Below the pieces are notes generated by a model that worked only from the letters and a program-made list of their open reading frames with translations, searched no databases and had not been told where the DNA came from. From Limonium bicolor (taxonomy: Eukaryota; Streptophyta; Magnoliopsida; Caryophyllales; Plumbaginaceae), in NCBI GenBank assembly GCA_023374045.1, contig CM041779.1, positions 272,338,062 through 272,402,061 on the forward strand: a stretch of DNA of 64,000 nucleotides, given 5' to 3'. This document shows positions 11,002-55,396 of the stretch, in pieces (the first letter of the stretch is position 1; every line of letters begins with the position of its first letter). A program made the translations under genes and the position numbers.

Positions 11002-11235
11002 TGATAAGTGAATGGGTTTTAGTGTTTTTTTAAATGCTTAATTTTCATACTTGCTTGATAATATTCCACACTTATCATGTTTTCCTTTAGTTTTTGTTCA
11101 AAAAGAATTGATACCTTTTTATGTGTCAAGCATAAAAAAGCCACAAAAAATAGTAGATTAACTCATGAGGGTGATGAGACAACAAACGGGGATCGAATCG
11201 AAGTCAGAATGAAGATTTTAGAGGCTTTTGAAGCT

Positions 11236-11513: not shown

Positions 11514-11568
11514 GGCTAAATTTTCAGCAAAAAGTGCTGCCTTTTGAAGAAAGGAAAGGGGGGAAAGC

Positions 11569-11578
11569 TTATAAAAAG
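11569..11578 (+). promoter_or_regulatory. TATA box of the Athila 5' LTR
   Basis: TTATAAAAAG stands in a purine-rich context and is conserved in the 3' LTR at 61949-61958. Transcription should begin about 30 bp downstream, marking the U3/R boundary. Confidence 0.7.
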
Positions 11579-19900: not shown

Positions 19901-22881
19901 ATCTCTTATAAATTTTACAATTTAATAACTATCTTAATATAAGGTAGTATTTTAATTTCTTAAATTCCCCAAACTTGGTCAAAGTCTCCTATATAGTCAA
20001 CTTTGAATTCTAATACCAAATTGGGACCAAACTTTCGGTAATTACCTAGTATACCCAATACTTTTCTATTTTTACAATTTTGACCCAAAACTTTATAAAA
20101 TGTTATAATTTTTATTAAATTCATTTAAAAACCCTAAATTCCTCTAAATTAAGCCCGCGGCTTTATATTTTACTAGTAATTACCATCTGACCCCAAACTT
20201 AATTATATAAGCATAAATTAACTAAATAAGCTTTAAACTTAAATTAAAATGGCCTAATGACATGGCCTTATTACAACTTTGCTTTATAACATAAAATTAC
20301 ACATAAAATTGCTCAAATTATAGTATAAGCTCTCGGCCTTGCTGTAGCTTAATTATTTTTCCACATAATGTCATAATTTGACCATTATGTTAATTAAATC
20401 ACTTAAATGACTAGCTTAATTTATCTTAGTCATTTTTTTCCATTCTTAGGTTAAAATAACCCATATAATTAACTCCACTCTCGGCACATATAATATATAT
20501 GCTAAGAAATCATAAAATCATAAGTTTAAGGTGTTTATAACTTGGTTTATCCCTTGTAATAACTCGGAAGCTTGGAGGAAAAATCACCACATCATTTAGA
20601 CATGTTTAATACACCAAAATAAGATATGGTTATACTCCAAGCATGAGCTTAACCATAAAGAACAATTAATGTAAGATTTAAGGCAAAAATCACCTTAAAA
20701 ATGCAAGGAAGTTTCCAAAGGATTTCGGCCTGAATTAAACACACCACATGGTGTTAAATTCACCATATAAACATAGGAAATAGTTAGACAACAACAAGCT
20801 GCTATGGTAATAGGTTTTACCTTAGCAAAATGCCTTAAAGAATGGTATTTCCTTTGATTTTCGGCCACCCTTGCTCCAAATGGTTAACCAACTGAATAAA
20901 CATGTAAATATGAAGATTATGAGTGAATAAACTCATAAAAATCAGAAGAAGAAAACCGGATGGAGAAAGGAGATGCTTAAGGTATGTTTTTACCTTAAAA
21001 TGCAAATCTTGGAAACCTTGGTCCCTAGACTTGCTTCAGCCGAGATTGAAGATTGTTCAAGGTTTAAAATGCTGAGAATAAGCCATGGAAAGTGATAGAT
21101 CATGAGCTCCAAGTGTAGGTAATGAAGAGATGAAGAAAAAGAGCTAAAATATGCCTTAAACCATTACCTTAGGTGCTTAAGAGATTGATTTGTCTTCCAT
21201 ACTCAAGAACACATCTTGAGAGAGTTTGAAGGGCTGATGGCTCAGCTGGAATGGGACAAGAGGCAAGAGAATGAGAGGAAAGGTGTTTAAATGGTTAAAA
21301 TGTATAAAAAGGAATAGTAACAAGGTGATTCATCACATTAGGAAGATATTTAGCACTAAAGTAGAATGAGCTGTCTTCTAATCTCCTTGCCTGCCGACAG
21401 CCCAAGGGTTAGAAGGGTCAATTATTTGACCATTGACCAAACTTGGTCAATTTGCTTGAAAATGCACTATTTGGGTTACTATTCACAAATGAATGCCATA
21501 TTTTCGATTTTTTTGAAATTTTGGATTTAGACCTCCCAATGTGGTACATTATAGTACATTAGTATATCAAGGTCTAATCCAATGCTTAACACCACTCAAA
21601 ACCCACTCAGAAGTCAATTTTCTCAAAAACCGTGCTTTAAGGAATTTAGAGCACATTTTGTGTTAGAACATGTTTTAGAGCTTGGTTTCCTTTGAGAATG
21701 GTTTTATAATGTTCATTACTTCATTATAATACTTAGGAATCCACTTTGGATCCTATTTGAGGTCATACAATCTCTATGGTGTCTTAAAGCACATTTTTGG
21801 CTTTACCGATCTTAAAGCATGTTTTGCCTTGTTGAGATCTTTTAGATTGTTCCCCAATGGTGTTTAGATGTTTATTAACCATCTTAGATCATTAATAGAT
21901 CATTTAATTAAGTTTTTAAGGTTAGGGGTATTTCACAACCAGTCGGGCACCTGTCTGCGAGAGCTCCGTAGAACCTCTAGCACAGACAACCACTCAGACA
22001 CCGCACGAAGATATCTCTCATGCTTAAAGATGAAAAACAAAGACAAAGGACTGCAAAGGATCGACACATTTAGATAAGACACATACACCCACATAAGCAA
22101 CTTGCTCACGACAAGTTCACGACAAAAGGAGAAGATCATTAATGCACAAGATAACAAGGCTATCAATGAACATTATTACATAACTGTAATAAATTCAGTA
22201 GAGGACATTTATGAGCATTTAATGAGCCAAACAGAATCAGGCAAGTGGGGCACACAAGTGGTGATCGACCTATCAAAAGGGCTACCACCAACTTGACAAA
22301 CCATAAGGCGACACGTAGTCCAGACACCTCCAGATCAAGTTGAAGACTCTCTACAAGTCTAGTGAGGCTAGTATGTGAATAATCGAAGCTGTAGTCGACT
22401 CCTAGAAGTCTAAAGACTAATAGAACGGTAGTTACATCCTAACAACCGTGTATATATACTTGCATTTATTCCTTATGTAAGTATGCCTGTACGAGAGAAA
22501 AGAAAGAGATAATCTGGGCAAGTGTGGATCAGACTTAGGAGTGTGTGTAAGTGCTAGAGAGTTGGTGAGCTTGATAGGACTGGGTTATAGTATCAATACA
22601 TTGGGTATTTGATAGACCGACAGGTCGGGGAACGGTCGGTGAACCGTAGGCCGATAGTCAGGAGAGGGTTAAGGACTTTAAGGGTAAAGTCAAAACTGTC
22701 CCGGGAGTCTGTGTGTGGGGCAAAGGAGATTAAGTGAATTTCGTGTGTGTAAATTCTCAATCGAAATGGGTTTTCCAGTTTAAGTTTATCTCGCATCCAT
22801 TCCTAAACTATCTAATTTTATTAGAGTCTACGATACGTCCACGACACGTCGGGGACGCATCCGGAGCGCTTGCTGGTTTCA
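16926..22881 (+). repeat. 5' LTR of the SIRE element, split by a solo LTR
   Basis: LTR sequence occupies 16926-17077 and 21941-22881 and matches 54299-55391 closely. TATATATA at 22451-22458 is the probable TATA box. A palindromic stretch with CGACAGGTCGGGGAACGGTC lies at 22617-22665. The frames at 21868-22296 are chance frames within LTR sequence. Confidence 0.93.
17078..21935 (-). mobile_element. 4.86-kb solo LTR in the SIRE 5' LTR
   Basis: The unit starts TGTAACACCCC, ends GGGGTATTTCA and is flanked by CAACC (17073-17077 and 21936-21940). It has no primer-binding site, polypurine tract, coding region or internal repeat of its own ends, so it is best read as a solo LTR left by recombination between the two LTRs of a Tekay-like element. 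Its ends match the minus-strand LTRs elsewhere in the window. Most of 18700-20500 is very AT-rich. I see no gene in these 4.9 kb. Confidence 0.85.
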
Positions 22882-22883
22882 AT

Positions 22884-24447: not shown

Positions 24448-27222
24448 CACACAGATCCCAAAAAAACTACAGTAGCCACATCAGTCCCGCTTTCCTTCTT
24501 CCTCAATCCATAGCCGATTTCCCTCATCTCTTTTCTCCATCCATCTTCAACCTGAAAAAACGAGAATAGTAGCCGCTACCACCGTCTCTCCTCCATTTTG
24601 ACATCGATCATCTTCTTCCATCTAAAAAAAATAGAAGACCTTCTTCATTCCTTTCACACTGAACAAGGAACATACAAGCTACTTATTCTCAACCATTCTC
24701 TTCACTCTCGATGAATTTGCAAACCTTTCTGGTGAACAAGGAACACTCGCCTACTTCGTTCCCTTCACTACAGGTAATGTTGTAAGCCCAACAGCCAAAC
24801 AAGGATCCTCCATCTCTACCCTCTACTTCTTCATCGATTTTTCTCACCATCTGACTCGACTCTTCTCCTCTATGAACAAGAACTTCCCCAACTCCCTGAC
24901 GATTTGCTCTTCTTCTTCTCAAGTACACCCCAAAACACAGAGAACCCAGCCGACACAAACGTGTCTTCCTTCTATCTATCTTCTATTCTCTTCTTCCTAA
25001 ACATGTTTTAAAAAATCCTGGAAGTCGAGAGGTAAATACCCAGAAGAACAAAAGACCCTCATCTCTGAGAGCTCCTCCGCCATTCCTCCCTTCATCACTA
25101 AAACCAGAAGCCCTCCCGCCTCCATTTCTGGGACAACAGCCGCAACACCTCCTCACCTTCTCCTTCGAATTCTCCTCCCAGTGATTCGCTCTCCTTCTGC
25201 GTCTTCAATTCAGAAGCTGGCTCTAGTCTTTCTTTCTCTGTAAAAACGTGGAAACCTATACACAATACCCCAAAACCTCAGAGACCTTCATCTCAATTTG
25301 TGACCGCCCTAACGACATTTCACCGAAATCATGACCCGATCTCCTCTCTGCTCGATCTCATCCTTCTCGATTCAGCAACAAGGCAAGCAAATGCTAACCG
25401 GAGGGCCATATGATCGACCCGACTTCGTTGATCACGAACGATGATGGTTGATGAGGGAAGTTTTTGGCTATAATCGGAACCAACATTTTAGATGCCGGTG
25501 TTGGTATCACTGAAAAGAAACGCTTGTGTTTATCCCCTGTTAGGATTATTTTGAGATGATGAGACCCTCATTCTGGGTATTTGTTCGTTGATTTTGTTTT
25601 GCAGTGGTCTTATATACCCCTTTTCCGGCTTGCTTTTGCCTCGTTTGTGCTTGATCCATGCCAGATTAAGTTAGTCCTGGTAATAGGGAAGAAACCGACT
25701 GTAACACATGCGACCTTGTAGGTCTGCAAATTGCCACTTTGTTGATATAACTCTCTGCGCTGCACTTAGACATTATCTTCGACAGGTTACGCTTATGTGT
25801 GGAAATTAAAATTTTGTTTGCGATTGAACGTGCCTGCTATTCGTGTTCATCTCGTCATTTTGTTTGCTGTTCGTTCGATTATGCTAACGATTAACAATTT
25901 TGGTTTTGTTGATTACGTTTTTAGCTCTTTTGCAAGAGACATTGACTCTCCCCACTCCTCGGTATTTAATCTCAGCCCAGAAAAACTTCAAACTTGTTTC
26001 TGTTATTGCTTGGTTGGAGTGTTTCGTTTGACATCTGTGCAATGTATCATCGTTTGTACTCTGTATTTCCATATTCCTATGCAACCGTTTGATTCCATCG
26101 CAACTGATATGCACCTAATTCAAGGGAGCTAGAAGAGGGTGTTAGATGAGTTTGACTGCTTTAATCGCTTTGTACTTCCGGTGATGTGCGATGGCACTAG
26201 TGTTACCACTGCTAAACGTCAAATTGGAAAAGCGACATTGTAGATGATCGTTCCTTCTGGTTTTATGGTTTATGGACGGGTTTAAACAAAATTAGCTTCA
26301 CCGCTGTTAATGTGCACCTTGGAAAGGCTTGAAATGAATGTCTTCTCTTGTTTATTTTTGAATCAGTAGAGTATATATTAGGCTTTAGTAGTTCTAATAT
26401 TGAAATCCGAATTTGAGTTTCGTAAGTCTAATCTTATATGGGCTTAATAAGCAACTAACAAAAGCACAGAGAACATTAAGATGTATACTGGTTTTTCGAT
26501 TGTAAATAGTTCTTGATAATCTTCAGTTTATTTTGGAATATTTGTCTATCACGAACTCTGCTTAATCATTTCATAATGATCATGTACATATTTGTTGTCG
26601 TTTGTTTACTTCATAATTTGTCATCCGTTTACTTTCTTTCGTTTCTATTACGAGTTAGGACATTTATCTGTATTAATATCTCTATTTGTATTTACTGTTT
26701 GATTGGGACCGTTAGGATACTGCTATTTTTGGTTCAATTTAAAATTCATTTTGGGCTTGATCCATTGACTAGCCAAACCAGGTTTAATTCATGTGATTCT
26801 AGAAGCCCATTAGGTTACCCGTTTAATTTCTGGACATGTATGTCCAGTTAAGGCCCACATTTTTCTGTGGGTCTCTTTAGAAAAGCCCTAGGACCACTCA
26901 CAGATGTTACTCACATTAAGGTCGTAGTACCCGAGGGTCGTAGTACCTGTTTGTGGGGACATTTCTCCTAAAAAAACTCTCCAAAACAACCCACAATGAT
27001 AAGAATAAAATTCACAATCAACGGTCCAATTGAAAATCCATAAGGATAAATTCTACTTCGAAATCAAACAAAAATAAGATCCATATTCGGCCCAATTCTG
27101 AAAATTAATTTAAGGCCTACAATTTTGACCCAATTTTGAGGCACAATTTTGGCACAATTTTAAGCCTGATTTTGAGGCCCATACTAGCCCACATTTCAAA
27201 CCAAGCTTGACCAATTCAAGGT

Positions 27223-30200
27223 GTAACACCCCACCCAAAACCTTCGCATTTAGTCAATAATCGCAGCGGAAATCATAAACTGAACCATATACCAAAAGGG
27301 CGGTGTTACACGTCGTTAGCCACCCACGAGGCTAACAAGGCTGTTACTTACAATGTATCGGTCTGATTACGAGAATGCCGAGCATAATTACAGCCTTACA
27401 AAAATCACTTATCCAAAAGAATGACAATATACCGAGTGCAACTGTACAAAAATCACCAACTAGCTTTACATCCGCTAAAATATAAGGCCACGAGTGTACA
27501 GACACTACTCGGGTTCAATATCCAAAAATAACAAAAGTATCATCAATCTAGGACCTAAAGCCATTTTGCTTCCTCGATCCTCATCCTGCAATAAACATAG
27601 CCCCCAAAGAGGGTCAGCAACCTTTTGCTGGCATGGTTAACGTGCAGCCCGCTGACTACCGGGATACACGTAACTATTTGTCATGATAACATGGCGTTGA
27701 TTTTAACATACAACATGCATATACTTAACAGGAATTATTGTAGAACAATAACAACACATACATCGTGAAAACAACTCACTTTAGAAAACAACCAACACAA
27801 TTAGTCAACTTTTAAGCCTAGAGAATGACTTCATCCTCATGTTAAGCTTAACACATATCCCATTACTGTTTGTTAGTCGAATGAACAACTTAACTTAAAA
27901 GATGAGGCGGGTATGATTACCCGTACACATCAACACATAATTTCCCCCTAGCCCGAGTGGAAATCAGGTAGGTAAGCTTTGGCTAAGCTAATGGGAGGTC
28001 GAATTCCCCATAAAAGGAAAACTACCCTAACATAAGGAGAGAGCCGAATCTGATTCAGATGTTGACACCCATACATACACGCGTGACCGGAACGATCGGA
28101 TTCCTCACTCCCCAGGTTAGCACTCGTTAGAAGTCCCACAATGGGAGCTTAACAATATCTCACACAAGTAAGTGTTTAAGTCAGTTAGACAGACAAGGGA
28201 AGCAAGGCGCAATTCAACAACAAATACCACAACTAAACATACATAGCCGTGGTTAGAACGTTCCTTAGGTTGGGGACGTTATTACCGGATACCGTTCTCT
28301 TACGTTTCCTAGCTTTGGTTAATTAATAGTTAGCACGCATTCGAGGTTACCGGTATTGGTACGCACACGTTACATTAGTAATAAGAACTGTAAACTCATT
28401 TCATGGTTTAATCTTACAAGGTTGTAAACACCCAGAAAAAACAAACAACACACAAGCCGGTGTAAACCGGTAGGCAACAGACTGCAAGAAAACCATACCT
28501 TGGTCCTTGCTGTGATTGGTTCCCACCGCTGGAGAATCCTATACACATTTAGTAATGTCGGTTAATTAATGTACTAGACCTTTATTAATTTGTTACTTCA
28601 CATTCCTAGTCTATTTTTCTTTCACACTTTATTATGATTTTTCCATCTTCCTAGTTATCATTATAACCCACCTACATGTCCTAGACAAACCCCCGCAAAC
28701 GGAAGTCAAAACGGGGGTCAAACGAGCAAATTATGTTAAAAACAGTGACATGTCCGAACTTGTGTCCGGACATCAATGTTCGGACACAAGCCGAGACTTA
28801 GAAATTGAAAACTGGCGTTTGTCCGAACTTGTGTCCGATCTTTGAAGTTCGGACACAAGTCGAACAAAATTTTGGGAAGATTTTAGAAACGTCCGAACTT
28901 GTGTCCGGACATCAAAGGTCGGACACAAGTCGAGAGCGAATCTGGAAAATTTTTCAACGTGTCCGAACTTGTGTCCGGACGTCGAAGGTCGGACACAAGT
29001 CGAGACTAAAACTTGAGAAAAATTTTGACACGTCCGAACTTGTGTCCGGACATCAAAGGTCGGACACAAGTCGAGACTGAAACCTGGGGAAAAAAATTTA
29101 ACGTGTCTGGACTTCAAAGGTCGGACAGAAGTCCGGACATCACCCGAAACTCGGAAAATTTATAACACAACGAGGCATGTCTGAACTTCCAAGTCCGGAC
29201 GGTAGTTCGGACGTGCCTGTAAGTTCATTTTCAAATTGTATTTTCAACACAGAATTGCACCCAAACTTTATACAATTTTTGGCATGATCTCCCCATAGTT
29301 ATTATATGTTTCCCCCACATTATTTAGCCCACCAAAACACTTTGACATCAACTCATTCAAAAACACAAATTTGTATACAAATCCCATCAATTTAACAACA
29401 GCACCACAATGTGTATAACCCTTAAAGTTTGGCACTTAAACAACAACAAATTAAACACTGAATTTCCTCATATTATTAGCAACACCTGCATTACACCCAA
29501 CATTTATTTGCTCAAACAAAACACATTTCATAGCTCACACATTAGTTGAAGGTAAGTTAATTACCTTGATTATTCTTTCCAAACTTCCCCCTTCTCTTTA
29601 CTTCTTGTTCCACAATCGGTACTCAACGGGATAGATTGCTACACTAATGACCAAGCCAAGATAGCCACAATGAGTATTTAGGGTTTATAATTCCATTAAC
29701 CCTAGAATTTAGAAATTACTTGAACACATGGAGGGAACTACCTTCTACTTCGAGATGAAGTGATTGGCAATGAATTAGGGCTAGCTCCAACACCTCAAGG
29801 AGATTGAACAAGCTAACATGGAGAACAAGCATGGTATTCAAAATAGGGAAAATCGATTTCAAGAAGGAAATGGAGGAATAAGTGAAATTTTGGTTTCCTT
29901 CTTACCTTATAACAACAAGAAGATGATTGGCTTCAAGAATATGAAGTTTCTTCTTCGAAATGTGGTGCACCCATGGAGATGAAATATGGAGTTTTGAGAT
30001 TTTGAAAGGTGCAAAATGATCCCCAAGATGAGAGGAGTATTTTGGTGAAAGAATTTCTTGATTTGGAGCTAGAATGAAGAAGTTACAAGGAGTTGAAGTT
30101 GGGGTTTCTTTGGCTTGTAAAAATTGCCATTGCTGGCAACAAGAACAGGAAGAGAGAGAGCTGGGTGAGGGAAAAGAAAAACGTGAATGAGAGAATGAGG

Positions 30201-30629
30201 GGAAGAGAGAGAGTGTGAGAGGGGAATTTTATTATTTTGTAGTTTAGTAAATAAGTAGAATTAATAGAGTAGAGGGGAAAATAAAATCTGATTATATTAC
30301 AATGTGAGAGAGTGGCACTTGGTCATTAGTAGATAACACCCGTTAATTCCCGAACTGTCAGTTTTAACAGTCCGGGTCCGTTTCCGGAATGTATTTATAT
30401 ATTTTTCCTAAAAATTCTTAGACTTTAATTAGTATATAATTATAGTTATAAAATCAACTATAATTTATACAAGTCCGTTTTAGACGTTTAAAGTCACGTT
30501 TGTGCTTTTAATCCATTATATGGATTTGTTTCTTTCGGAAATTTCTCCCACATATTCTTAGTGACTAATTAAGTCTTAAATTATATTAATTATCTAATTA
30601 ACTAACATATTATGGTTTGGGGTATTTCA
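27223..30629 (-). repeat. 3' LTR of the chromovirus
   Basis: The plus strand reads TGTAACACCCC to GGGGTATTTCA. It contains the hairpin array at 28751-29213 and otherwise no gene; the frames at 27948-28139 and 28773-29117 recur in the other LTR and are not coding. It differs from the 5' LTR by scattered single changes and small indels. Confidence 0.93.
28751..29213. repeat. hairpin array in the chromovirus 3' LTR
   Basis: Six to seven inverted units, about 65-80 bp apart, share the arms ACTTGTGTCCG and CGGACACAAGT, often followed by CGAGAC. The central part of each unit varies, and the last two units are shortened. The same array is present in the 5' LTR. Confidence 0.85.
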
Positions 30630-30642
30630 ATCTACCCCCCTT
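30630..30642 (-). other. polypurine tract of the chromovirus
   Basis: On the minus strand the sequence next to the 3' LTR reads AAGGGGGGTAGAT, a purine run of the kind that primes plus-strand DNA synthesis. Confidence 0.8.
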
Positions 30643-30765
30643 AAAAGAACTTTGTCCCCAAAGTTCACACTTCCCACGCATCTTAAATATTAGAACACGG
30701 GGATTACCTCTGAAACAACGCTTCTATAACAACACACAAACATTCTTTACATCACATCGGACTCA

Positions 30766-30919
30766 AGGTCCCGGTACATAACATCACTTTAGACTCAAAG
30801 GTCTATAACATAACAACATAGACATGTATTCCAATACATGCCAGGTCCCGGTACATAACATCACTTTAGACTCAAAGGTCTATAACATAACAACATAGAC
30901 ATGTATTCCAATACATGTC
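30766..30919. repeat. 77-bp tandem duplication near the polypurine tract
   Basis: A unit starting AGGTCCCGGTACATAACATC occurs at 30766-30842 and again at 30843-30919, almost unchanged. It lies between the end of pol and the 3' LTR and is probably non-coding. Confidence 0.8.
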
Positions 30920-30989
30920 GTACATACATAACCGAAACGGCTTTACCCCCCTTAAATAGGGGTACGCCCCGTACCCTATACATACAAAA

Positions 30990-33900
30990 CTAAGAGGTAA
31001 ACAACGACGGGTACTTCACCCTCATCTTCTCCTCCAGCTCCCAAGTGGCCTCCTCGACTTCCTGGTTAGACCAGAGGACTTTCACCAATCTAACAAACTT
31101 ATGGCGAGTGTCTCGAGTCTTAGTGTCCAGGATCCGTACGGGAGTATCCACTGATCGCATGGTCGGCTCCAGTGTTAGCCTTTTGGGCTGAAGTACATGA
31201 GACGGATGAGACATATATTTCTTCAACTGGGACACATGAAATACATCATGTACCTTGCCCAGCTCAGCAGGTAAATCAAGCCTGTAAGCTACCGGGCCTA
31301 TCCGCTCCGTCACAACATAAGGCCCCACATATTTCGGGCTCAGCTTGTCTTTCTGGCCAAAACGAAACACTCCCTTCATGGGGGATACTCTAAGAAACAC
31401 CTGATCGCCACGGCGAACTCCAGGTCACGTCTGCGCACATCGGCGTATGATTTCTGTCTATCCTGAGCTGCTTTCATGTTAGCCCGGATTTGACATACTT
31501 CTGCTTGTACTTGCTCTAAATACTCAGGTCCTATAATGACCGTCTCACTCGACTCATCCCAGCATAATGGCGTGCGGTATGGTCTACCGTACAAAGCCTA
31601 GAAGGGAGACATCTTGATCGACGCATGGTAACTGTGTTATAGCTAAACTCGATCAGATGTAACTTATCAATCCAGCTGGTCTGAAAGTCAAGTGCACATG
31701 CACGTAACATATCCTCAAGCGTCTGTATAGTGCGCTCACTCTGACCATCTGTTTGTGGGTGAAACGCCGTACTCAACTTCAGTTCGGTACCAAGTGCTTC
31801 CCGTGTACTTCTCCAGTACGAGAGGAATCTGGTATCCCTATCAGACACGATAGTCTTCGGTACTCCATGGTGTCGTACTATCTCACGGTCGAAGAGCTCT
31901 GCTAGCTTCGCCACTTTCCAGGTGTCCTTCATCGGAATGAATCGGGCCACCTTGGTCAGTCGGTCAACAACGACCCATATCATATTCAAGCCTCCCCGAG
32001 TAGGCGGAAGCCCAACAACGAAGTCATGGAGATGTCATGAAACTCCATTCAGGAACGGGCATTGGCTGTACCATGCCACCAGGACGACGGTGCTCAAACT
32101 TGACCTTCTGGCAAGTGAGACACCTAACAACTTAATCTGTCACATCTTTCTTCATACCGGTCCACCAGAAATATCTCTTCACACTCTTGTACATTTTTGA
32201 AGCTCCGGGGTGGATAGAAGTAGAAGAGCAGTGTGATTCACTCAGTATGCGCTCCTTCAGCTCAGCGCTACTTCGTGGAATACAAAGTCGGCCATTCAGC
32301 CTGATCAAATCATCATCATGTAGTCGGAAATCATACTTTTGGCTCTCGAATGTGCCGTCCATAAGTTTCTGTTTGATCTCTTGCATGTACTGATCTGACA
32401 TCTGAGCACTCCGCACCTCTTCAACCAAGCTAGAGTGAGAGATAAGCGAATGGAGAGAGTGTGCTCGGCGACTCAATGCATCAGCTACAATGTTTGCTTT
32501 ACCTTCCTTGTACTGAAGGTTAATATCGTAATCAGTAAGGAACTCAACCCATCTTCTTTGCCTCATGTTCAACTCCTTCTGAGTGAACAGGTATTTCAAA
32601 CTCTTGTGATCTGAATAGATCGTCACATTCACTCCGTACAAATGGTGTCGCCATATCTTCAAGGCGAAGACAATGGCACCCAATTCTAGATCATGTGTAG
32701 GATAGTTTTCTTCATGTCGCTTCAACTGTCGGGAGGCGTAAGCCACGACCTTCCCGTGTTGCATCAAAACACACAAACCCCCCTTACCTGACGCATCACA
32801 GTACACCTCAAAACCCAGTACCCTCTGGTATAGTAAGAACTGGTGCAGAAGTCAAAGCATCCTTGAGACTCTGAATGAGCTCTCACAGTCAAGTCCACTC
32901 AAACGGTGCATCCTTCTTCATTAAGGATGTCAACGGTTTCGAAACACTAGAAAAATTCTTCACAAACCTCCGATAATAACCTGCCAGACCGAGGAAGCTC
33001 GGATGTCGGTAACCGTCTTCGGTCTAGGCCAGGTGCGCACAGCATCAATCTTGGCCGGATCCACAGCGATCCCGGCCTCAGAAATAACATGACCAAGAAA
33101 AGAGACTTGGTCCAACCAAAATTCACACTTCGAGAACTTCGCATAAAGCTGGTTCTCTCTCAATGTCTGCAATACACTCCTCAGGTGATCTTCATGCTCA
33201 ACCTTGGACTTAGAATAGATAAGAATATCATCGATGAAGACAACTACTGACTTATCCAACTGCTCTCGAAACAAACGATTCATCAAGTCCATAAATTTTG
33301 CGGTGCATTAGACAACCCAAACGGCATGACCGTGAATTCATAATGTCCATATCTGGTTCGGAATGCGGTCTTCTCAGTATCACTGTCTCTGATAGCAATC
33401 TGATGGTAACCCGATCGCAGATCGATCTTAGAGAATACAGATGCACCTCTCAGCTGATCAAACAAATCATCGATACGTGGCAATGGGTAACGGTTCTTCA
33501 CCGTCACAGCATTCAGCTCTCTGTAATCGATGCAGAGGCGGAGACTCCCATCCTTTTTCTTCACAAAAAGGACTGGTGCTCCCCATGGTGAAACGCTAGG
33601 GCGGATAAATCCCTTGTCGAGTAGGTCTCGCAGCTGCTCTTTGAGCTCTGTCATCTCAGCTGGAGCCATACGGTAGGGCGCCTTCGCTATAGGTCCGGTG
33701 CCCGGTACCAAGTCAATCTCAAACTCAACTGCCCGTGTAGGCGGCATGCCTGGGAGTTCCTTAGGAAAGACATCAGGAAACTCCGACACAACCGGTACAT
33801 CTGGGCTAAACTCAGGGTCTCTCTCTATGTCCTGGACATAGCAGAGGTATACATCATTCTTCCTTCTGATTTCGTGATACATGGCCATGGCGGAAATGAT

Positions 33901-34345
33901 CTGTGTCGAAGGCTCCCTGGGCCTCTGGCGGTATGAAATGGTAACCCCAGACGGACTCCGAAGAAGCAGACGGTGCTCGGCACATAGGATTCTGCCCTTG
34001 TACCGCTCCAACCAGTTCATTCCGACAATTACATCAAAACCAAGCCCTCGAACTCTATCAAGTCGATCGGGAACTCTTCATTCTTAATTCGTACAACAAC
34101 ATCTCGGTGTAGCGGGTACACCTGATCCGCTCTTCGACGGGAGAGTGACTAAAGTCTTGCATCTCTTCACCGTCTACCCCAGCCTCTTCGAAAGATAGCG
34201 AGAAAAGTGTGTGAGGCTCCGGAGTCGAACAAGACCGAGGCGTCCACGCCATTAACTGGGAAGGTACCGGTGAGGATGGTGCCGCTCTTGCCGGCCTCTG
34301 CCTCATTGCAGACACTCAGTATACCTCCCGTCCCGAGTGCACAGC
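30990..34345 (-). pseudogene. pol: chromovirus protease-RT-RNase H-integrase-chromodomain polyprotein, frameshifted
   Basis: Order on the minus strand: protease with 'DSGASHTF' near 34220; RT at 34020-32960 with '[20 protein letters not shown]', 'MPFGLSNAP' and the active site '[11 protein letters not shown]'; RNase H at 32806-32450 starting '[12 protein letters not shown]' and ending '[10 protein letters not shown]'; integrase with 'TIVSDRDTRF' and 'HPQTDGQSERTIQTLEDM', so the second Asp and the Glu of the catalytic triad are visible; and a tail at 31400-30990 with 'VHDVFHVSQLKKY' and a chromodomain-like segment (VEEATWELEEKMRVKYPSLF). There are several frameshifts: after the protease, at about 33290, 32960-32810, 32130-31990, 31550 and 31390. 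It cannot make a functional product as it stands. Its start at 34345 assumes the splice acceptor described under AlkB. Confidence 0.9.
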
Positions 34346-34415
34346 CTAATTTATTTCAGAAACTTTATAAGTATACGGTAATAACACGGTGGTTTACTCA
34401 AGAAATCAACACTGC

Positions 34416-34421
34416 TTTATT
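34416..34421 (-). terminator. AATAAA polyadenylation-type signal after AlkB
   Basis: AATAAA lies about 120 bp past the AlkB stop and upstream of the protease. It could be a remnant of the 3' untranslated region of the captured mRNA, or a signal for a short Gag-AlkB transcript. Confidence 0.35.
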
Positions 34422-34542
34422 CATAAAACTCATCTTTACACCATGATGGTATTACATTGGCTACATCGCTGAACTTAGCATACTAATGCATCACATACTT
34501 AACATACAACTGACTTCATACTTTACATGGTTACACATAACT

Positions 34543-35273
34543 TCAAAACTGTCTAAAGGTTAAGTTCAAACGTCCAGGCTTCATGTGTGTGGCATTGATT
34601 ATTGTCGGAGGTGCCGTATTCAATTTGATCTTCTTGATACCATGATACAGCATCCTTGACTGCCCACCCATGATTAACACATCTCCAGACTCCAACACTA
34701 GCTTCCTTGCGAGGTCCGCTCGCTTCTGCTCGCCATACATAAACACTGCGGTATCACCAATGGACCAAGACACCACGGGTACTCCCTTACTTAGAGACTC
34801 GGGTGTTTCGTCCTTGTCTTGGTGTAAACCCAACCTTCCACCTTTTTGGTAGAAATTGACAATACATAAGTCTGCCTCGATACTTGGAATTTGTTCTGGT
34901 TCAACTTGGTGAGCAATTCCCACGGTGTGGTTAACAACCGCAAGGAACTCCTCAGGTATACTCGGTATGGTAGCTCCATCTTCAGCTCGTGTGTCCTGAT
35001 ATGACTTGGTGTAAGGGTTCCAATCCTTACCCATGCACATCATCTTTAAATTCATTTTCCCACTTGGGTATTCGGGTGTGTAGAAACCTCCAGGTGCTGC
35101 TCCAAGCTCGTTGCACGTCGAATGATATGGATTTGTGCTTCGGGTGTCAAGTATCCTTTTAATAATATCATACCTGGTTGGATAACCTGACACTGTTCTG
35201 TCGGATAGTCGGGATGCCGATGGTGGTATCTCCGGGGTTCGGTGTGGGTGGGATTGGATAGATATTGAAGTTC
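34543..35273 (-). CDS. AlkB-type 2-oxoglutarate/Fe(II) dioxygenase captured by the chromovirus
   Basis: AlkB enzymes remove methyl groups from nucleic-acid bases by oxidation, using Fe(II) and 2-oxoglutarate. The open frame at 35193-34543 (216 codons counted from a GTG) has the full signature: 'FYQKGGRLGLHQDKDE' with iron ligands H124 and D126, 'PVVSWSIGDTAVF', 'ESGDVLIMGGQSRMLYHG' with H184, and 'GRLNLTFRQF' with 2OG-binding R208 and R214. No stop or frameshift occurs, unlike gag and pol on both sides. No good ATG is near the start. If the acceptor at 35274 is used, an in-frame N-terminal extension joins it to gag from 35273. AATAAA follows at 34421-34416. The sequence resembles plant AlkB homologues of the ALKBH1/bacterial AlkB type rather than viral ones. 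Substrate and activity are unknown. Confidence 0.88.
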
Positions 35274-35760
35274 CTAAGGTTTAGAATTACCTAATTTAGG
35301 TGGTTTTCACATTATACTTTAATTCATTACTTTGTGGTCATACATTTAGACTCACTAACACACATGCATGGAAATGCGGTAAGCAATCACTTATATCACT
35401 TAACGGTTTTAAGGGGTACCTGGTCTAGAAGACGATCCTGGTGCCTCTGACCGGTCCACCACGTTCAAGGTAGCCTTGCCTGCTCCCGGCCCCTTCCCCT
35501 TCTGGGACTCAGTATTCCCTTGCCCTAGGGATGGCTGATAAGTAGCTTTCGGGCCTTCAGTGGTCGCAGTGGCCTTACCCTTCCATTGCCCTCTAGGCCT
35601 ATAGTTTCTGCCATCAGGGTTATTGTAGCACTCGAAGTCACGGTGCCCCAGCTTCTTGCAGTAATGGCACTGCACATCGTTCCCTTTGCATCCTTGCCGG
35701 GATGGTCACCTTTGCACCACTTACAAATAGTGGCGCTCCGGTCCGAGCCCGTACTGGCTG

Positions 35761-35833
35761 CTATCACAAACACAATCAATACTTACAACATAGTAATACA
35801 TACTTGAATTGGTATTCGGAATTAACTAGTTAC
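35761..35833 (-). other. candidate 73-bp intron 2 in chromovirus gag
   Basis: The donor CCCAAGG/GTAACT has the same six intron bases as intron 1. The acceptor is TTTGTGATAG/CAGCC. Removal is phase 1 and leads in frame into 'ASTGSDRSATICKWC', the first zinc knuckle. The gap contains a stop in the gag frame. Confidence 0.5.
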
Positions 35834-36089
35834 CCTTGGGCGGGTGAGAGCGTAAGGGCTTAGCCGCATAGGCAAGTGAGCTTCAGCGGCTCCTCAGTGG
35901 TAGTGGGCTGGGCTTGGCCCTTGCATCTTGCTGCTGGCCCTTCTGGGGCTGAGGGTAAGGTTTCCTCTTCTTCCCTCCTTGGTACCCTTGCGAGCTTTGG
36001 CCCTCGCTCGAGATCTTGCGCTTATGCGCATTCTCCTCGTCCCTTAGGCGGACGGTGATCTCCACCTTAGTAGCGACATGATAGCACTC

Positions 36090-36180
36090 CTGAGGTTCAA
36101 GGTGTTAGTCATGCCCCGCAACATATTTACACACTCACATACAACATAACTCATTCACACTTAGGCATTATTGAAGTTAC
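36090..36180 (-). other. candidate 91-bp intron 1 in chromovirus gag
   Basis: The donor TTGCAG/GTAACT follows '...AEYNTLQ'. The acceptor is AACCTCAG/GAGTGC, preceded by GACTAACACC, a good branch-point match. Removal is phase 0 and continues into 'ECYHVATKVEITVRL', a sensible Gag sequence. Reading through hits a stop within the gap. Confidence 0.6.
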
Positions 36181-36996
36181 CTGCAAGGTATTGTACTCGG
36201 CTGGCCCCATGCCATAGCGTAGGCGGTGGCTCAACCCACTGTAAAAGCGATTCACTAAGACCCGGGTCGAGTAACCTAGGTCAGGTAGAAGATGAACAAG
36301 GTCGGTGAATGCGGTGTAGTAGTCGTCCACCGTCATTTTGTCTCCTTGCTTCAAACTATCGAGCTCCAGGCGCTTTGCCTCTTGCACGTGCACTGGATAG
36401 TACTTGGCCCTTAGTAATGTCGTGTACTGCTCCCATCCAAAATCCGGATCGGCCACTTTCTCGGCCCTCACAAGTTTCCACCAGTTCCTAGCCGAACCCT
36501 TCAAATAAAAAGCACAAGTCGGACCTTGGCATCAGCAGGAACGGCCAAAGTCTCGTAGGCGGTCTCGAGCTCCGAGATATACGCCTCTAGTTTGGAAGGG
36601 TCGGTCTCCTTTGAAAGACGGGGGCTCAAATCGGCCAACGCTTTCACCCAATTAGTCGCGTGGCTGTGGTGGTGGTGGTGGTTTCACGCTGATCCTGACC
36701 AACGGGCTGTGTTGCCTTGCTGCACTGCGGTTACATTTGAGGTATCACTTGAGTAGGGCGGCCGCATTGCCTTGCCATCATCTGAGCGGTAGGGTTCTCC
36801 CCTGGGTCTCCCAAACCACGCCCGCGGCCTCTTCCTGGTGGTCGCCCTGCCATCTGAATTTTACATGAAGCACATTAGTATTGTGCATACAAACTTATCG
36901 AGTCAAGTGTTTATAACGTCCTTTGGACGACAAGGTTTAAATTTCCTAACTCGGTATATTCCTAAGCTCGGTAATTGGTAATCAGAGCGATACTTC

Positions 36997-37008
36997 GCTC
37001 TGATACCA
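36997..37008 (-). other. primer-binding site of the chromovirus (initiator Met tRNA)
   Basis: GCTCTGATACCA on the plus strand reads TGGTATCAGAGC on the minus strand. It lies five bases from the 5' LTR, which starts at 37014. Confidence 0.9.
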
Positions 37009-37108
37009 CTTTTTGTAACACCCCATCCAAACCTTCACACTTATCAATAATCGCAGCGGAAATCATAAACTTAACATATACCAAAAGGGCGGTGTTACAC
37101 GCTGTTAG

Positions 37109-39365
37109 TGTAACACCCTAGATTTTGCCTTAAAACATAGGAAATAAAATAACAAAGCTAACGGTGAAAACGGCTTCGAAAACGGACTCCAAACGAGCCC
37201 TAAAGGTGCAAAACAAGCCTGGTCCGAACTTGTGTCCGGACATGGGAAGTTCGGAACAAGCCGAGACATTTAAACTGTGAAAAATCCATCCGTCCGAACT
37301 TGTGTCCGGACATTGATGTTCGGACACAAGTCGAGAGTTAAAAGGGTTTGAAAACCAAAGGCGTCCGAACTTGTGTCCGGACTTGGAAGTTCGGACACAA
37401 GTAAGTTTTGAAAAGTCCGAGAAATTTAACGTGGCGTGTCCGAACATCAATGTTCGGACCAAAGTTCGGACACGCCAAGACAGAGAGCCTCCAAAACGTT
37501 CGGGGCTTGTCCGAACATGGATGTGGACGGACGTTCGGACAGGTCCTGATGGGCATCCTTTCCAGCGAAAACAGAACCAAATTAACATCAAAATTAACCA
37601 TAAAACTCAGCAATCAAAGGAGAATCATTCCAATAACTTAGTACCTCAAATGATAGCAAAATATACCATCGCAAGATCTCATACACAATAAGTATCTCTT
37701 CATCAAATCCAAGACTTCTTAAAGAATTATTCGAGTAAAAACACATCAACTAAATAGCAGCGGAATAGCAAAATCCTTAAGGGCGTTACCGCCACACTCT
37801 AACAAAGAGTGCTCAGGCTTAAACCACTAACCAAAACCAAAACGTTTCCAAAACTTGTAAAACATAACAATTCCAAAACATAACTCAACTTGTTCCAAAC
37901 GTAGCAATTATTCAGTCATCCTAAGCTATGTGACAGCGTGTCCCCATCCCAATTCAGCCATGAGTACCTGCGATCATAAAACAACAATGGAAAACGCGAA
38001 GGGATCGCGCAAATCAGTGAAACTGAGTAAACATTGTCTCAACCTGTAAAATACATTTTGAAACCCAATTTACATTTGCAAAACATTAACTCACACCATA
38101 ATATTAACCAGCTTTACCAACACCAAACCACCATTAGAAAAATGTTTCGGGGGAGAACTTTCCAAGAATCAAATCAATGGTTTACACGGACGACCCAATC
38201 CGGGTCGCAATAATTAGAATTCCACCTCACTCTACGTCCTTAAGTGTGCACACCCCCCAGAAGGTAACTTATGACCCAAAGGAGTAGATCATTAGAGCTT
38301 AACTGCAAGTAATGTCTGCAGGCAAAAGTAATAAGAATATCCACGGGGTACATAGTACCAATAATTACACGGAGCGCCATAAGGCACCAATAATTTACAC
38401 GGAGCACCAGAAGGTACCAATCAATCCAATAACCAATTCAAAGAAAGTCTCCCAAAACGTTTAATCAAACCTTTCGCAAACATCACACCAGAATACACAC
38501 GGGGGAAATAAATCCCAAACTTCCACAATCTCAACCACAGTAAATCCAAATCATCGATAATCACAAAACACAGAGGTAAGAATGTTGAGCACAACATTTA
38601 CCTGGATACGCTCACAGCCACCGAATCACTCAGCAAGGTCAGCAGTAGCGTTCGTCAGGGAATTCGGTGTCTAGAATCGCAAGCAGAAATACAATCAGGA
38701 TCTACTCAAATCAAGGAATTAGTAACCTAACCTTACCAATGGATTCCCCTTACCCTTCTACACGAACCGGCACCAGAGAAGCGGCCTAATGACAATGGAG
38801 AATAAGAGCGTAAATTCAAAAGAGGTTGAGAGCTTGAAGAAAGAGAGGAGCGTTGTGACGGCGTATTGGGGATGAAGAAGATCGTGGTAAGATCGTGAGG
38901 TTAAATAGAAAATAATTAACATAATAAGATAGAAATAAATTGAAAATATATTTTTAAAAGGAGAGAGAACTGGGAAGTAGTTTGTAAAATAATAACTACA
39001 ATAATACTAATCTGAAAACCGAGTATTCAAATAACTTTTAAAACCCTGGAAGGATCTAGATTCAAGATTAAAGAGGTAATTAAATATTATCTGGTTAAAA
39101 TAAAATAGAAGAAGGCTGAATAATCAGATAAAAGAATAATTACATAATAGCTGAATAAATCAATTAGGAAGAGGAAATTATCTTAGGGAGAAGTAAAATC
39201 AATTTTGTATCCTTGAACATAGTAAAGTTGATTGAAGCGAACGCAAATATCTATATATGTAGATATATCTATATATATTGCTTCTCTGGGCCTTTATTAA
39301 TCTTACCAATAACATCCTTGACTATATACTAATTTAATCCTAAGCCAGAATTCACAGGTATTTCA
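37109..39365 (-). mobile_element. 2.26-kb solo LTR inside the chromovirus 5' LTR
   Basis: The unit starts TGTAACACCCT, ends AGGTATTTCA and is flanked by GTTAG (37104-37108 and 39366-39370). There is no primer-binding site or coding region. It is from a related but different family, with its own hairpin array at 37222-37540. This is the innermost and thus latest layer of the nest. The frames at 37130-37691 only read through the hairpins. Confidence 0.88.
37222..37540. repeat. hairpin array in the innermost solo LTR
   Basis: Five units share the arms ACTTGTGTCCG and CGGACACAAGT, for example ACTTGTGTCCGGACAT against ATGTTCGGACACAAGT at about 37299-37340. The last two are variant units built around ATGTTCGGAC. 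The array lies about 110-430 bp from the low-coordinate LTR end. Confidence 0.85.
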
Positions 39366-40800
39366 GTTAGCCACCCACGAGGCTAACAAGGCTGTTACTT
39401 ACAATGTATCGGTCTGATTACGAGAATGCCGAGCATAATTACAACCTTACAAAAATCACTTATCCAAAAGAATGACAATATACCGAGTGCAACTGTACAA
39501 AAATCACCAACTAGCTATACATCCGCTAAAATATAAGGCCACGAGTGTACAGACACTACTCGGTTCAATATCCAAAAATAACAAAAGTATCATCAATCTA
39601 GGACCTAAAGCCATTCTGCTTCCTCGATCCTCATCCTGCAATAAACATAGCCCCCAAAGGGGGTCAGCAACCTTTTGCTGGCATGGTTAACGTCCAGCCC
39701 GCTGACTACCGGGATACACGCAACTATTTGTCATGATAACATGGCGTTGATTTTAACATACAACATGCATATATTTAACAGGAATTATTGTAGAACAATA
39801 ACAACACATACATCGTGAAAACAACTCACTTTAGAAAACAACCAACACAATTAGTCAACTTTTAAGCCTAGAGAATGACTTCATCCTCATGTTAAGCTTA
39901 ACACATATCCCATTACTGTTTGTTAGTCGAATGAACAACTTAACTTAAAAGATGAGGCGGGTATGATTACCCGTACACATCAACACATAATTTCCCCCTA
40001 GCCCGAGTGGAAGTCAGGTAGGTAAGCTTTGGCTAAGCTAATGGGAGGTCGAATTCCCCATAAAAGGAAAACTACCCTAACATAAGGAGAGAGCCGAATC
40101 TGATTCAGATGTCGACACCCATACATACACGCGTGACCGGAACGACCGGATTCCTCACTCCCCAGGTTAGCACTCGTTAGAAGTCCCACAATGGGAGCTT
40201 AACAATATCTCACACAAGTAAGTGTTTAAGTCAGTTAGACATACAAGGGAAGCAAGGCGCAATTCAACAACAAATACCACAACTAAACATACATAGCCGT
40301 GGTTAGAACGTTCCTTAGGTTGGGGACGTTATTACCGGATACCGTTCTCTTACGTTTCCTAGCTTTGGTTAATTAATAGTTAGCACGCATTCGAGGTTAC
40401 CGGTATCGGTACGCACACGTTACATTAGTAATAAGAACTGTAAACTCATTTCATGGTTTAATCTTACAAGGTTGTAAACACCCAGAAAAAACAAACAACA
40501 CACAAGCCGGTGTAAACCGGTAGGCAACAGACTGCAAGAAAACCATACCTTGGTCCTTGCTGTGATTGGTTCCCACCGCTGGAGAATCCTATACACATTT
40601 AGTAATGTCGGTTAATTAATGTACTAGACCTTTATTAATTTGTTACTTCACATTCCTAGTCTATTTTTCTTTCACACTTTATTATGATTTTTCCATCTTC
40701 CTAGTTATCATTATAACCCACCTACATGTCCTAGACAAACCCCCGCAAACGGAAGTCAAAACGGGGGTCAAACGAGCAAATTATGTTAAAAACAGTGACA

Positions 40801-41264
40801 TGTCCGAACTTGTGTCCGACATCAATGTTCGGACACAAGCCGAGACTTAGAAATTGAAAACTGGCGTTTGTCCGAACTTGTGTCCGATCTTTGAAGTTCG
40901 GACACAAGTCGAACAAAATTTGGGAAGATTTTAGAAACGTCCGAACTTGTGTCCGGACATCAAAGGTCGGACACAAGTCGAGAGCGAATCTGGAAAATTT
41001 TTCAACGTGTCCGAACTTGTGTCCGGACGTCGAAGGTCGGACACAAGTCGAGACTAAAACTTGAGAAAAATTTTGACGCGTCCGAACTTGTGTCCGGACA
41101 TCAAAGGTCGGACACAAGTCGAGACTGAAACCTGGGGAAAAAATTTAACGTGTCCGGACTTCAAAGGTCGGACAGAAGTCCGGACATCACCCGAAACTCG
41201 GAAAATTTATAACACAACGAGGCATGTCCGAACTTCCAAGTCCGGACGGAAGTTCGGACGTGCC
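40801..41264. repeat. hairpin array in the chromovirus 5' LTR
   Basis: This is the counterpart of the array at 28751-29213 with only a few base differences. One of them is loss of a G in the first unit. Confidence 0.85.
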
Positions 41265-42699
41265 TGTAAGTTCATTTTCAAATTGTATTTTCAACACAGA
41301 ATTGCACCCAAACTTTATACAATTTTTGGCATGATCTCCCCATATTATTATGTTTCCCCCACATTATTTAGCCCACCAAAACACTTTGACATCAACTCAT
41401 TCAAAAACACAAATTTGTATACAAATCCCATCAATTTGACAACAGCACCACAATGTGTATAACCCTTAAAGTTTGGCACTTAAACAACAACAAATTAAAC
41501 ACTGAATTTCCTCATATTATTAGCAACACCTGCATTACACCCAACATTTATTTGCTCAAACAAAACACATTTCATAGCTCACACATTAGTTGAAGGTAAG
41601 TTAATTACCTTGGTTATTCTTTCCAAACTTCCCCCTTCTCTTTACTTCTTGTTCCACAATCGGTACTCAACGGGATAGATTGCTACACTAATGACCAAGC
41701 CAAGATAGCCACAATGAGTATTTAGGGTTTATAATTCCATTAACCCTAGAATTTAGAAATTACTTGAACACATGGAGGGAACTACCTTCTACTTCGAGAT
41801 GAAGTGATTGGCAATGAATTAGGGCTAGCTCCAACACCTCAAGGAGATTGAACAAGCTAACATGGAGAACAAGCATGGTGTTCAAAATAGGGAAAATCGA
41901 TTTCAAGAAGGAAATGGAGGAATAAGTGAAATTTTGGTTTCCTTCTTACCTTAGAACAACAAGAAGATGATTGGCTTCAAGAATATGAAGTTTCTTCTTC
42001 GAAATGTGGTGCACCCATGGAGATGAAATATGGAGTTTTGAGATTTTGAAAGGTGCAAAATGATCCCCAAGATGAGAGGAGTATTTTGGTGAAAGAATTT
42101 CTTGATTTGGAGCTAGAATGAAGAAGTTACAAGGAGTTGAAGTTGGGGTTTCTTTGGCTTGTAAAAATTGCCATTGCTGGCAACAAGAACAGGAAGAGAG
42201 AGAGCTGGGTGAGGGAAAAGAAAAACGTGAATGAGAGAATGAGGGGAAGAGAGAGAGTATGAGAGAGAGTTAGTGTGTGAGGGGAATTTTATTATTTTGT
42301 AGTTTAGTAAATAAGTAGAATTAATAGAGTAGAGGGGAAAATAAAATCTGATTTTATATTACAATGTGAGAGAGTGGCACTTGGTCATTAGTAGATAACA
42401 CCCGTTAATTCCCGAACTGTCAGTTTTAACAGTCCGGGTCCGGTTTCCGGAATGTATTTATATATTTTTTTCCTAAAAATTCTTAGACTTTAATTAGTAT
42501 ATAATTATAGTTATAAAATCAACTATAATTTATACAAGTCCGTTTTAGACGTTTAAAGTCACGTTTGTGCTTTTAATCCATTATATGGATTCGTTTCTTT
42601 CGGAAATTTCTCCCACATGTTCTTAGTGACTAATTAAGTCTTAAATTATATTAATTATCTAATTAACTAACATATTAAGGTTTGGGGTATTTCACAAGG

Positions 42700-54298: not shown

Positions 54299-55391
54299 TA
54301 TTAAGACAATATCCTTTAGTTTTGATGATAGCAAACCTTGTATTGTCTATCTAATGCGTTTGTCAAGATTCATGATTCAGATAAACAGGTAAATGAGTGG
54401 CTTAGCACGCAAGGTTGAAAGCGCGCTCAATCCACGACATGTGCCCAACCAGTTGGGCACCTGTCTGCGAGAGCTCCGTAGAACCTCTAGCACAGACAAC
54501 CAGTCAGACACCGCACGAAGATATCTCTCATGTTTAAAGATGAAAAACAAAGACAAGGGACTACAAAGGATTGACACATTCACATAAGACACATACACCC
54601 ACATAAGCAACTTGCTCACGATAAGTTCACGACAAAAGGAGAAGATCATTAATGCACAAGATAACAAGGTTATCAATGAACATCATTACATACCCGTAAT
54701 AAATTCAGAAGAGGGCATTTATGAGCATTTAATGAGCCAAATAGAATCAAGCAAGTGGGGCACACAAGTGGTGATTGACCTATCAAGAGGGATGCCGCCA
54801 ACTTGACCAACCATAAGGCGACACGTAGTCCAGACACCTCCAAATCAAGTTGAAGACTCTCTGCAAGTCTAGTGTGTTTAGTATGTGAATAATCGAAGCT
54901 GTAGTCAGCTCCTAGAAGTCTAGGGACTAATAGGACGGTAGTTACATCCTAACTACCGTGTATATATACTTGCATTTATTCCTTATGTAAGTATGCCTGT
55001 ACGAGAGAAAAGAAAGAGATAATCTGGGCAAGTGTGGATCAGACTTAGGAGTGTGTGTAAGTGCTAAAGAGTTGGTGAGCTAGATAGGACTGGGTTAGAG
55101 TATCAATACATTGGGTATTTGATAGACCGACAAGTCGGGGAACGGTCGGTGAACCGTAGGCCGATAGTCAGGAGAGGGTTAAGGACTTTAGGGGTAAAGT
55201 CGAAACTGTCCCGGGAGTCCGTGTATGGGGCAAGGGAGATTGAGTGAATTTCATGTGTGTAAATTCTCAATCGAAATGGGTTTTCCAGTTTAAGTTTATC
55301 TCACGTCCATTCCTAAACTATCTAGTTTTATTAGAGTCCATGATACGTCCACGACACGTCAGGGACGCATCAGGAGCGCTTGCTGGTTTCA
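54299..55391 (+). repeat. 3' LTR of the SIRE element
   Basis: The LTR is 1093 bp, equal in length to the reconstructed 5' LTR. Its first two bases are TA instead of TG, a late mutation since the 5' copy has TG. A TATATATA box lies at 54961-54968, and the GGTCGGGGAACGGTCGG palindrome near 55130. It ends GGTTTCA before AAGAC. Confidence 0.94.
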
Positions 55392-55396
55392 AAGAC

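Follow-up and report, generated by a model that had tools for sequence, protein, structure and literature searches.

The window analysed here, 64,000 nucleotides of the Limonium bicolor genome (C4:272338062-272402061 of a 2.92 Gb assembly), holds a reading frame for an AlkB-type demethylase inside an LTR retrotransposon. This raises the question of whether the frame belongs to the element as a gene and, if so, how it may be expressed and on what its product might act.

The element and its AlkB exon

All features of a complete LTR retrotransposon insertion were found (Table 1): two LTRs of about 3.4 kb, a primer binding site, presumably of the initiator tRNA-Met type, a PPT (AAGGGGGG, spotted by eye in 27222-42694) and a target site duplication. 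The order of gag, protease (PR), RT, RNase H and integrase (INT), followed by a chromodomain, is that of a chromovirus (Ty3/gypsy), with a Chromo match (PF00385) that is weak (21.5 bits, E 2.2e-4, under the Pfam cut-off of 25.1) and an SH3_Tf2-1 match of 86.8 bits. One RNase H region was found among the seven frames of the element that were scanned.

Table 1. Positions of the retrotransposon, its coding segments and its predicted introns in the window
Feature	Positions	Strand	Remarks
Target site duplication CAAGG	27217..27221	.	same bases directly after 42694
Chromovirus-type LTR retrotransposon, complete, 15,473 bp with nested solo LTR	27222..42694	-	LTR pair, PBS, PPT, matching 5-bp target duplications
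3' LTR	27222..30629	-	
pol exon (protease, RT, RNase H, integrase, chromodomain)	30990..34345	-	several frame breaks in the window copy
Non-coding stretch past the AlkB stop	34346..34542	-	contains AATAAA, ends in the pol acceptor AG
AlkB exon (ALKBH1-like dioxygenase)	34543..35273	-	first ~50 codons out of frame, catalytic core open
Predicted intron 3, first part	35274..35419	-	donor GTACC at 35419, AlkB acceptor AG at 35275-35274
gag exon 3 (zinc knuckle)	35420..35760	-	phase 1 end at the shared donor in unbroken copies
Predicted intron 2 (GT-AG)	35761..35833	-	
gag exon 2	35834..36089	-	
Predicted intron 1 (GT-AG)	36090..36180	-	after phase 0
gag exon 1 (start codon, capsid domain)	36181..36853	-	broken in the window copy; PF03732 36504-36151; start codon by eye
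Primer binding site (PBS) TGGTATCAGAGC	36997..37008	-	exact match
5' LTR	37014..42694	-	split by the solo LTR
Putative solo LTR, 2255 bp, inside the 5' LTR	37111..39365	-	CTAAC on each side; starts TGAAATACC, ends GGTGTTACA
Target site duplication CAAGG	42695..42699	.	

The interruption of the 5' LTR is probably a solo LTR, judging from its ends, the CTAAC duplication and the shared tandem units. The main part of the 5' and 3' LTRs differs by 27 substitutions at 3308 sites (K2P 0.008), the final ~94 bp (27222-27314 against 37014-37110) by 6 substitutions and 3 gaps, and this jump in divergence falls at the nested solo LTR. Gene conversion of the main part would explain such uneven divergence, and the element may only look young. 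Treating the repeat 27315-30629/39366-42694 as the whole LTRs was ruled out, as it has no target duplication; the solo LTR in the 5' LTR resolved the boundaries. Tandem units with many TGTCCGGACACAAGTTCGGACG-like inverted motifs are shared by several repeats of the window, including at least three different LTRs (28752-29114, 37222-37402, 40802-41161, 11237-11514, 57502-57838 and 61617-61893). Two more LTR-like pairs, 94-95% identical (11010-12599 with 61387-62983, and 21936-22882 with 54446-55392), enclose most of the window, which thus looks like a retrotransposon nest.

The AlkB frame comprises 216 codons (34543-35193, minus strand) and matched 2OG-FeII_Oxy_2 (PF13532) with an E-value of 2e-41. 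Its best match among solved structures was rice OsALKBH1 (5xeg; E 1.3e-63, 46-47% identity), which also headed the PDB matches in a fold search with the predicted AlkB model (pLDDT 87; TM 0.89). ALKBH5 was absent from the 21 PDB sequence matches and first appeared at rank 42 of the fold list, which does not fit an ALKBH5-type enzyme. The HxD...H and RxxxxxR ligands typical of AlkB lie within the PF13532 domain: in a 30-row alignment, H124, D126 and H184 are invariant columns, and R208 and R214 are conserved in at least 90% of the rows. The Pfam and PDB matches and the alignment columns thus agree with the preliminary description of this DNA, which had placed the same five ligands. Its location of AlkB between gag and protease of a Ty3/gypsy element also stands, with PF03732 at 36504-36151 and the start of the protease at 34307-34197 (tblastn), all on the minus strand.

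The gene was also described as intact, and this does not hold for the window copy. A tblastn search with relatives put the N-terminal homology (35252-35103) in frame -3 and the core (35115-34546) in frame -2, whereas open copies elsewhere in the genome read the AlkB exon in a single frame. The contrast between an intact AlkB and a broken gag-pol was consequently dropped as an argument, since the frame comparison shows the AlkB of the window to be broken too.

Copies, selection and relatives

A degenerate nucleotide pattern for GLHQDKDE was found at 16,627 exact places in the genome, and its reversed control at 0. A few of these places may be host genes, and the pattern undercounts, since at least one copy of a diverged family (L040) reads LHQDRDE. 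A search with the AlkB protein of the window scored 150 places among 59,256 first-look candidates, all of them matches. A host ALKBH1D query (P0034) scored 117 of 47,067 candidates, all matching from about residue 120 on, and the 12 loci read from it (L032-L043) form a second, diverged element family, D. All 12 are element copies and none is the ALKBH1 gene of the host itself; a short query from the N-terminus of host ALKBH1 gave no match in the genome, an empty answer that is uninformative. The AlkB-bearing family is very abundant. Some pattern places are evenly spaced at ~10.4-10.6 kb, three or four running, like tandem arrays of the element (C1:1430340-1461739, C1:4328130-4348979 and C1:7387134-7418992).

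Besides the window copy, 59 copies were read: 27 near that of the window, picked from the best matches to its own frame, 12 of family D, and 20 systematic ones. The last were sampled at every fifth place among the first 100 on C1 that match the pattern, a set that covers the first 11.1 Mb of this contig and carriers of the eight-codon motif only. The preliminary description had called for a search for further elements with AlkB in the same place, and they proved to be common: gag lies upstream in 53 of the 59 copies (26/27, 10/12 and 17/20, respectively) and protease-RT downstream in 58 (27/27, 12/12 and 19/20). In RT, the window element shares 71-77% identity with five D copies and 73-98% with ten copies of other subfamilies.

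In 30 of the 59 copies (9/27, 10/12 and 11/20), the exon is open all the way from FxIC to the stop. In the other 29, as in the window copy, it is not open, which means that many transposed copies cannot make AlkB themselves; as the 27, the A/B copies included, were chosen through the shifted frame of the window, the share of frameshifts is biased upward and a shifted N-terminus is favoured among them. All 30 open copies retain the metal ligands H, D and H, and the two arginines are present in 29 and 30 of them.

Selection was estimated by simple pairwise counting (Nei-Gojobori) of up to 8 copies of subfamily A against up to 9 of subfamily B, with bootstrap ranges that are too narrow because related copies with a shared history were pooled. 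The dN/dS of the AlkB exon is 0.09 (0.06-0.14), and that of its N-terminal 52 codons is 0.16 (0.06-0.35). The corresponding values are 0.06 (exon 1, over 36504-36181), 0.15 and 0.15 for the gag exons, 0.10 for PR, 0.03 for RT, 0.04 for RNase H, 0.04 for INT and 0.06 for the chromodomain. The other two frames of the same segments gave 1.2-4.1 (1.2 and 2.8 for the AlkB exon), and non-coding stretches beside AlkB gave 0.5-0.8 by the same count, so that its neutral level lies a little under 1. In comparisons between and within five subfamilies, dN/dS for AlkB is 0.07-0.16 wherever dS could be computed, with several dS values above 1 and therefore rough; between A and D, dS is saturated. Purifying selection acts on AlkB as it does on gag and pol.

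The view that AlkB is a passenger, a functionless piece of a host gene, could draw on the many exons that are not open and on the frameshift in the window copy, but is very improbable in the light of this constraint, of the high values in the other frames, of the metal ligands kept in every open copy and of the retention of AlkB through divergence at which dS is saturated. The preliminary description had named a single copy or neutral evolution of AlkB as the marks of a passenger; instead there are many copies, with dN/dS far below 1.

An unrooted tree with 45 rows is divided by a branch with 100/100 support. On one side stand 16 element AlkBs, those of 15 copies and of the window, together with five database ORFs (P0001-P0004 and P0079); on the other stand 24 rows, of which 18 are from named plants. 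In an unrooted tree of 76 rows, the window and the five ORFs were set apart in the same way. These ORFs branch between the D and the A/B elements (83/95 on the D side, with bootstrap support unsettled) and are thus probably element genes too; one of them, P0002, resembles family D by eye in residues from just ahead of the acceptor. The AlkB-bearing lineage is probably shared with other genomes, as far as these sequences indicate. The top matches are ALKBH1C/D or OsALKBH1, and the trees left out other ALKBH classes; on this sequence evidence the enzyme is ALKBH1-like. The separation from named plant ALKBH1 proteins in the kind of tree that had been suggested, the same place in nearly all 59 copies and the low dN/dS together bear out the earlier proposal that AlkB is a gene of the element.

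The homology to host ALKBH1C/D, with the best named matches 54-57% identical (among the best 120 of 404 matches), might suggest an expanded host ALKBH1 gene family merely flanked by elements, which is hardly credible when gag or protease-RT lies on at least one side of AlkB at 20 of 20 systematic places, and both at 16 of 20, and when 21 element-type sequences are set apart from the 24 other rows at 100/100.

Two further relatives in the same genome (L064 and L065), selected because their open frames are long, lack AlkB and read gag and protease as a single frame; between their gag capsid and that of the AlkB-bearing families, identity is 33-36%. A protein search with gag gave no match. An IMG/VR scan yielded no close relative of the element AlkB; three viral contigs (L001-L003), found there with the element AlkB alignment, carry distant AlkB relatives of 33-37% identity.

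Predicted splicing of gag, AlkB and pol

The preliminary description regarded gag and pol as broken at many points. Real frame breaks do occur, but the gaps at 36180-36090, at 35833-35761 and from 35419 on look like conserved GT-AG introns rather than damage. Splice sites were compared in 28 aligned rows, namely 27 copies and the window, one of them (L012) without exon 1. Donor 1 is GT in 26 of the 27 rows that have it and acceptor 1 is AG in all 28; donor 2 and acceptor 2 are kept in 27 of 28 rows each, one row being deleted across intron 2. Donor 3, the AlkB acceptor and the pol acceptor are each present in 28 of 28.

Between A and B, identity is 65% in intron 1 and 69% in intron 2, with many gaps, and 67% in the stretch from the AlkB stop to the pol acceptor, as against 77-90% in exon segments. 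At 77% identity, the first part of intron 3 is as similar as gag exon 1 (77%), which counts against the splicing reading. In the window copy, T makes up 31-41% of the introns and 13-26% of the exons.

The phases are consistent with this structure. In unbroken copies, exon 2 starts in phase 0 and ends in phase 1, and exon 3 stays in phase 1. A search string located the shared donor in 28 of the 59 copies read; 27 of these have it in phase 1, and in most a stop follows 8-17 bases past it. The AlkB and pol exons each start in phase 1, and in 20 of 28 rows the pol exon stays open in that phase from its acceptor as far as the protease motif. Among the 30 copies with an open exon, which span families with saturated dS, AG stands at the AlkB acceptor in all and at the phase-1 distance in 29. 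An apparent mismatch of phase between the AlkB exon and gag exon 3 was discarded as an artefact of the shifted frames of the window, since open copies are in phase. In family D, intron 1 is absent (L040, 480-570) and intron 2 is present by eye; the donor is in phase 1 in six of the seven copies in which it was recognised, and the AlkB acceptor is in phase 1 in ten open copies. Thus, intron 1, present in A and B, was gained or lost within the lineage.

One phase-1 donor that fits both the AlkB exon and the pol exon in frame would allow three products: Gag alone from RNA unspliced at this site, Gag-AlkB, or Gag-Pol. We infer this splicing and the fusion protein from the DNA, and the two AlkB-less relatives that run gag and protease as one frame were counted in favour of this scheme.

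Alternatively, AlkB may belong to the element and yet be translated on its own, starting at its first ATG, either through internal initiation or from a dedicated transcript, as has been proposed for ORF2 of orchid elements; the AG would then be incidental or serve another junction. There is an ATG in the AlkB exon at the start of the MILLKGYL block, at which P0001 and P0004 are predicted to start, an AATAAA lies between the AlkB stop and the pol acceptor, and the AlkB-bearing ORF2 of orchid elements is a separate frame (PMC9289625). The codons ahead of this ATG are, however, constrained (dN/dS 0.18, 0.05-0.42, against 2.66 and 0.76 in the other frames), which points to translation from an upstream exon; they include the FxIC motif, as in host proteins, and the acceptor AG keeps its phase-1 distance in all but one of the open copies. 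Production as a separate protein is thus unlikely, and the preferred reading is a Gag-AlkB fusion.

The protease linker of the AlkB-less relatives (LNVMSRAEAEA) seems, by eye, to be doubled around AlkB, with one version, LNVVDRSEAPG, at the end of gag exon 3 (~35470-35430) and another, ILSVCNEAEAG, at the start of pol (~34325-34290). This doubling may be a trace of how the AlkB insert arrived.

Possible role and comparison with known systems

The explanation that we consider likely is that a captured ALKBH1-type gene has been kept as a working gene of the element, and that a predicted Gag-AlkB protein brings the enzyme to the nucleic acid of the element. Long ago, a lineage of chromovirus LTR retrotransposons would have captured the gene from a plant and retained it as one uninterrupted exon between gag and protease. 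The element RNA would contain gag introns, with the last gag exon ending at the single phase-1 donor. Left unspliced there, it would give a Gag that stops within a few codons; spliced to the AlkB acceptor, a Gag-AlkB terminated by the AlkB stop codon; and joined to the protease acceptor, Gag-Pol. As part of the fusion, Gag would bring AlkB to the virus-like particle or inside it, and there the Fe(II)/2-oxoglutarate enzyme would demethylate the template RNA, the cDNA or the RNA:DNA hybrid, and the element might benefit by the clearing of lesions that block reverse transcription or by the erasure of a host mark. The full version of this scheme, in which alternative splicing at one gag donor makes Gag-AlkB beside Gag-Pol, the demethylase cleans or unmarks the template within particles, and the lineage is old, occurs in several plants and exceeds 16,000 copies in a single genome, is put forward tentatively.

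AlkB-type enzymes repair m1A and m3C, lesions that block reverse transcription. The use of the enzyme against methylation of the element's own nucleic acid, as the preliminary description had suggested, is a plausible predicted role. Rice ALKBH1, its nearest solved relative, is reported to act on 6mA in single-stranded or unpaired DNA and to affect R-loop regions (PMC10469495). By analogy, an enzyme with this preference would meet RNA:DNA hybrids during reverse transcription, and the same substrate makes a role in host chromatin possible as well. The enzyme might then act on host DNA or RNA, for example on 6mA in R-loops or on host m6A, weakening the silencing of the element, and not on nucleic acid in particles. 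In accordance with this, demethylation releases ONSEN RNA from stress granules, according to a recent review (PMC12786077). The predicted fusion to Gag points to particles, however, and a host target seems doubtful, although it is a serious competitor to the delivery of the enzyme to element nucleic acid.

The preliminary description knew of nothing of the kind, which needs correction: one precedent was found in the open-licence literature, the Phalaenopsis Ty3/gypsy elements of the Tat/Ogre type with an ALKBH5-like ORF2 (Gypsy_Pa_2799), published by Alvarado-Marchena et al. in 2022 (PMC9289625). The orchid ORF is active on m6A in vitro, its elements make up 8.6% of the P. aphrodite assembly, and a consensus screen of 121 plant assemblies by the same authors found the domain in no other plant (PMC9289625). 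A December 2025 review, in its one passage on AlkB, names the orchid case as the element-encoded one (PMC12786077). In both cases, plant LTR retrotransposons have captured a 2OG/Fe(II) enzyme of the AlkB family, kept its cofactor residues and multiplied. Gypsy_Pa_2799, however, is Tat/Ogre-related, with a dual RNase H and a tRNA-Arg PBS, and its ALKBH5/9/10-type AlkB ends a separate ORF2 of 565 aa, whereas the element described here belongs to a chromodomain lineage (with the weak Chromo match noted above), has a Met-type PBS and carries an ALKBH1-like exon of ~245 codons between gag and protease, with a shared predicted splice donor. Tat/Ogre elements are described as having no chromodomain (PMC6317226); in its Chromo match, though weak, and in its PBS, the window element departs from the orchid type.

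Compared with OsALKBH1 (5xeg) and plant ALKBH1C and ALKBH1D, the element enzyme shares the fold, the metal and 2OG ligands and the FxIC motif ahead of the domain, but its copies have no host N-terminal region, consist of one uninterrupted exon and form their own group. As to expression, splicing sets which part of the polyprotein is made in Ogre, BARE1, Bagy2 and CRR (PMC6317226, PMC3735527). The splice sites, phases and base composition of the window element fit an Ogre-like strategy; the choice predicted here differs in being between an enzyme exon and the pol exon at one donor, and gag has two further predicted introns in subfamilies A and B.

In RNA viruses, AlkB sits in the replicase polyprotein. 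Such domains occur in plant viruses of the Alphaflexiviridae, Betaflexiviridae and Closteroviridae, where they are thought to repair or unmark viral RNA (PMC9289625); by description, these too are parasites with an AlkB enzyme.

The chromovirus AlkB looks like a capture separate from that in the orchid Tat/Ogre elements, and it differs from that case in the lineage of the element, the class of AlkB, where the gene lies and how it is predicted to be expressed. An apparently independent second capture by an LTR retrotransposon, of another AlkB class and in another element lineage, means that the capture of nucleic-acid demethylases may recur in the contest between plants and retrotransposons. 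With AlkB present in thousands of copies, the annotation of genes in a genome and its 6mA and m6A maps may also be misled. The predicted Gag-AlkB exon offers a testable idea of how an enzyme could be delivered to element RNA or cDNA, and the effect of methyl marks or lesions on retrotransposition becomes open to simple biochemical and genetic tests. The sequences suggest that these genomic parasites are equipped with an enzyme for clearing methyl marks or damage from nucleic acid.
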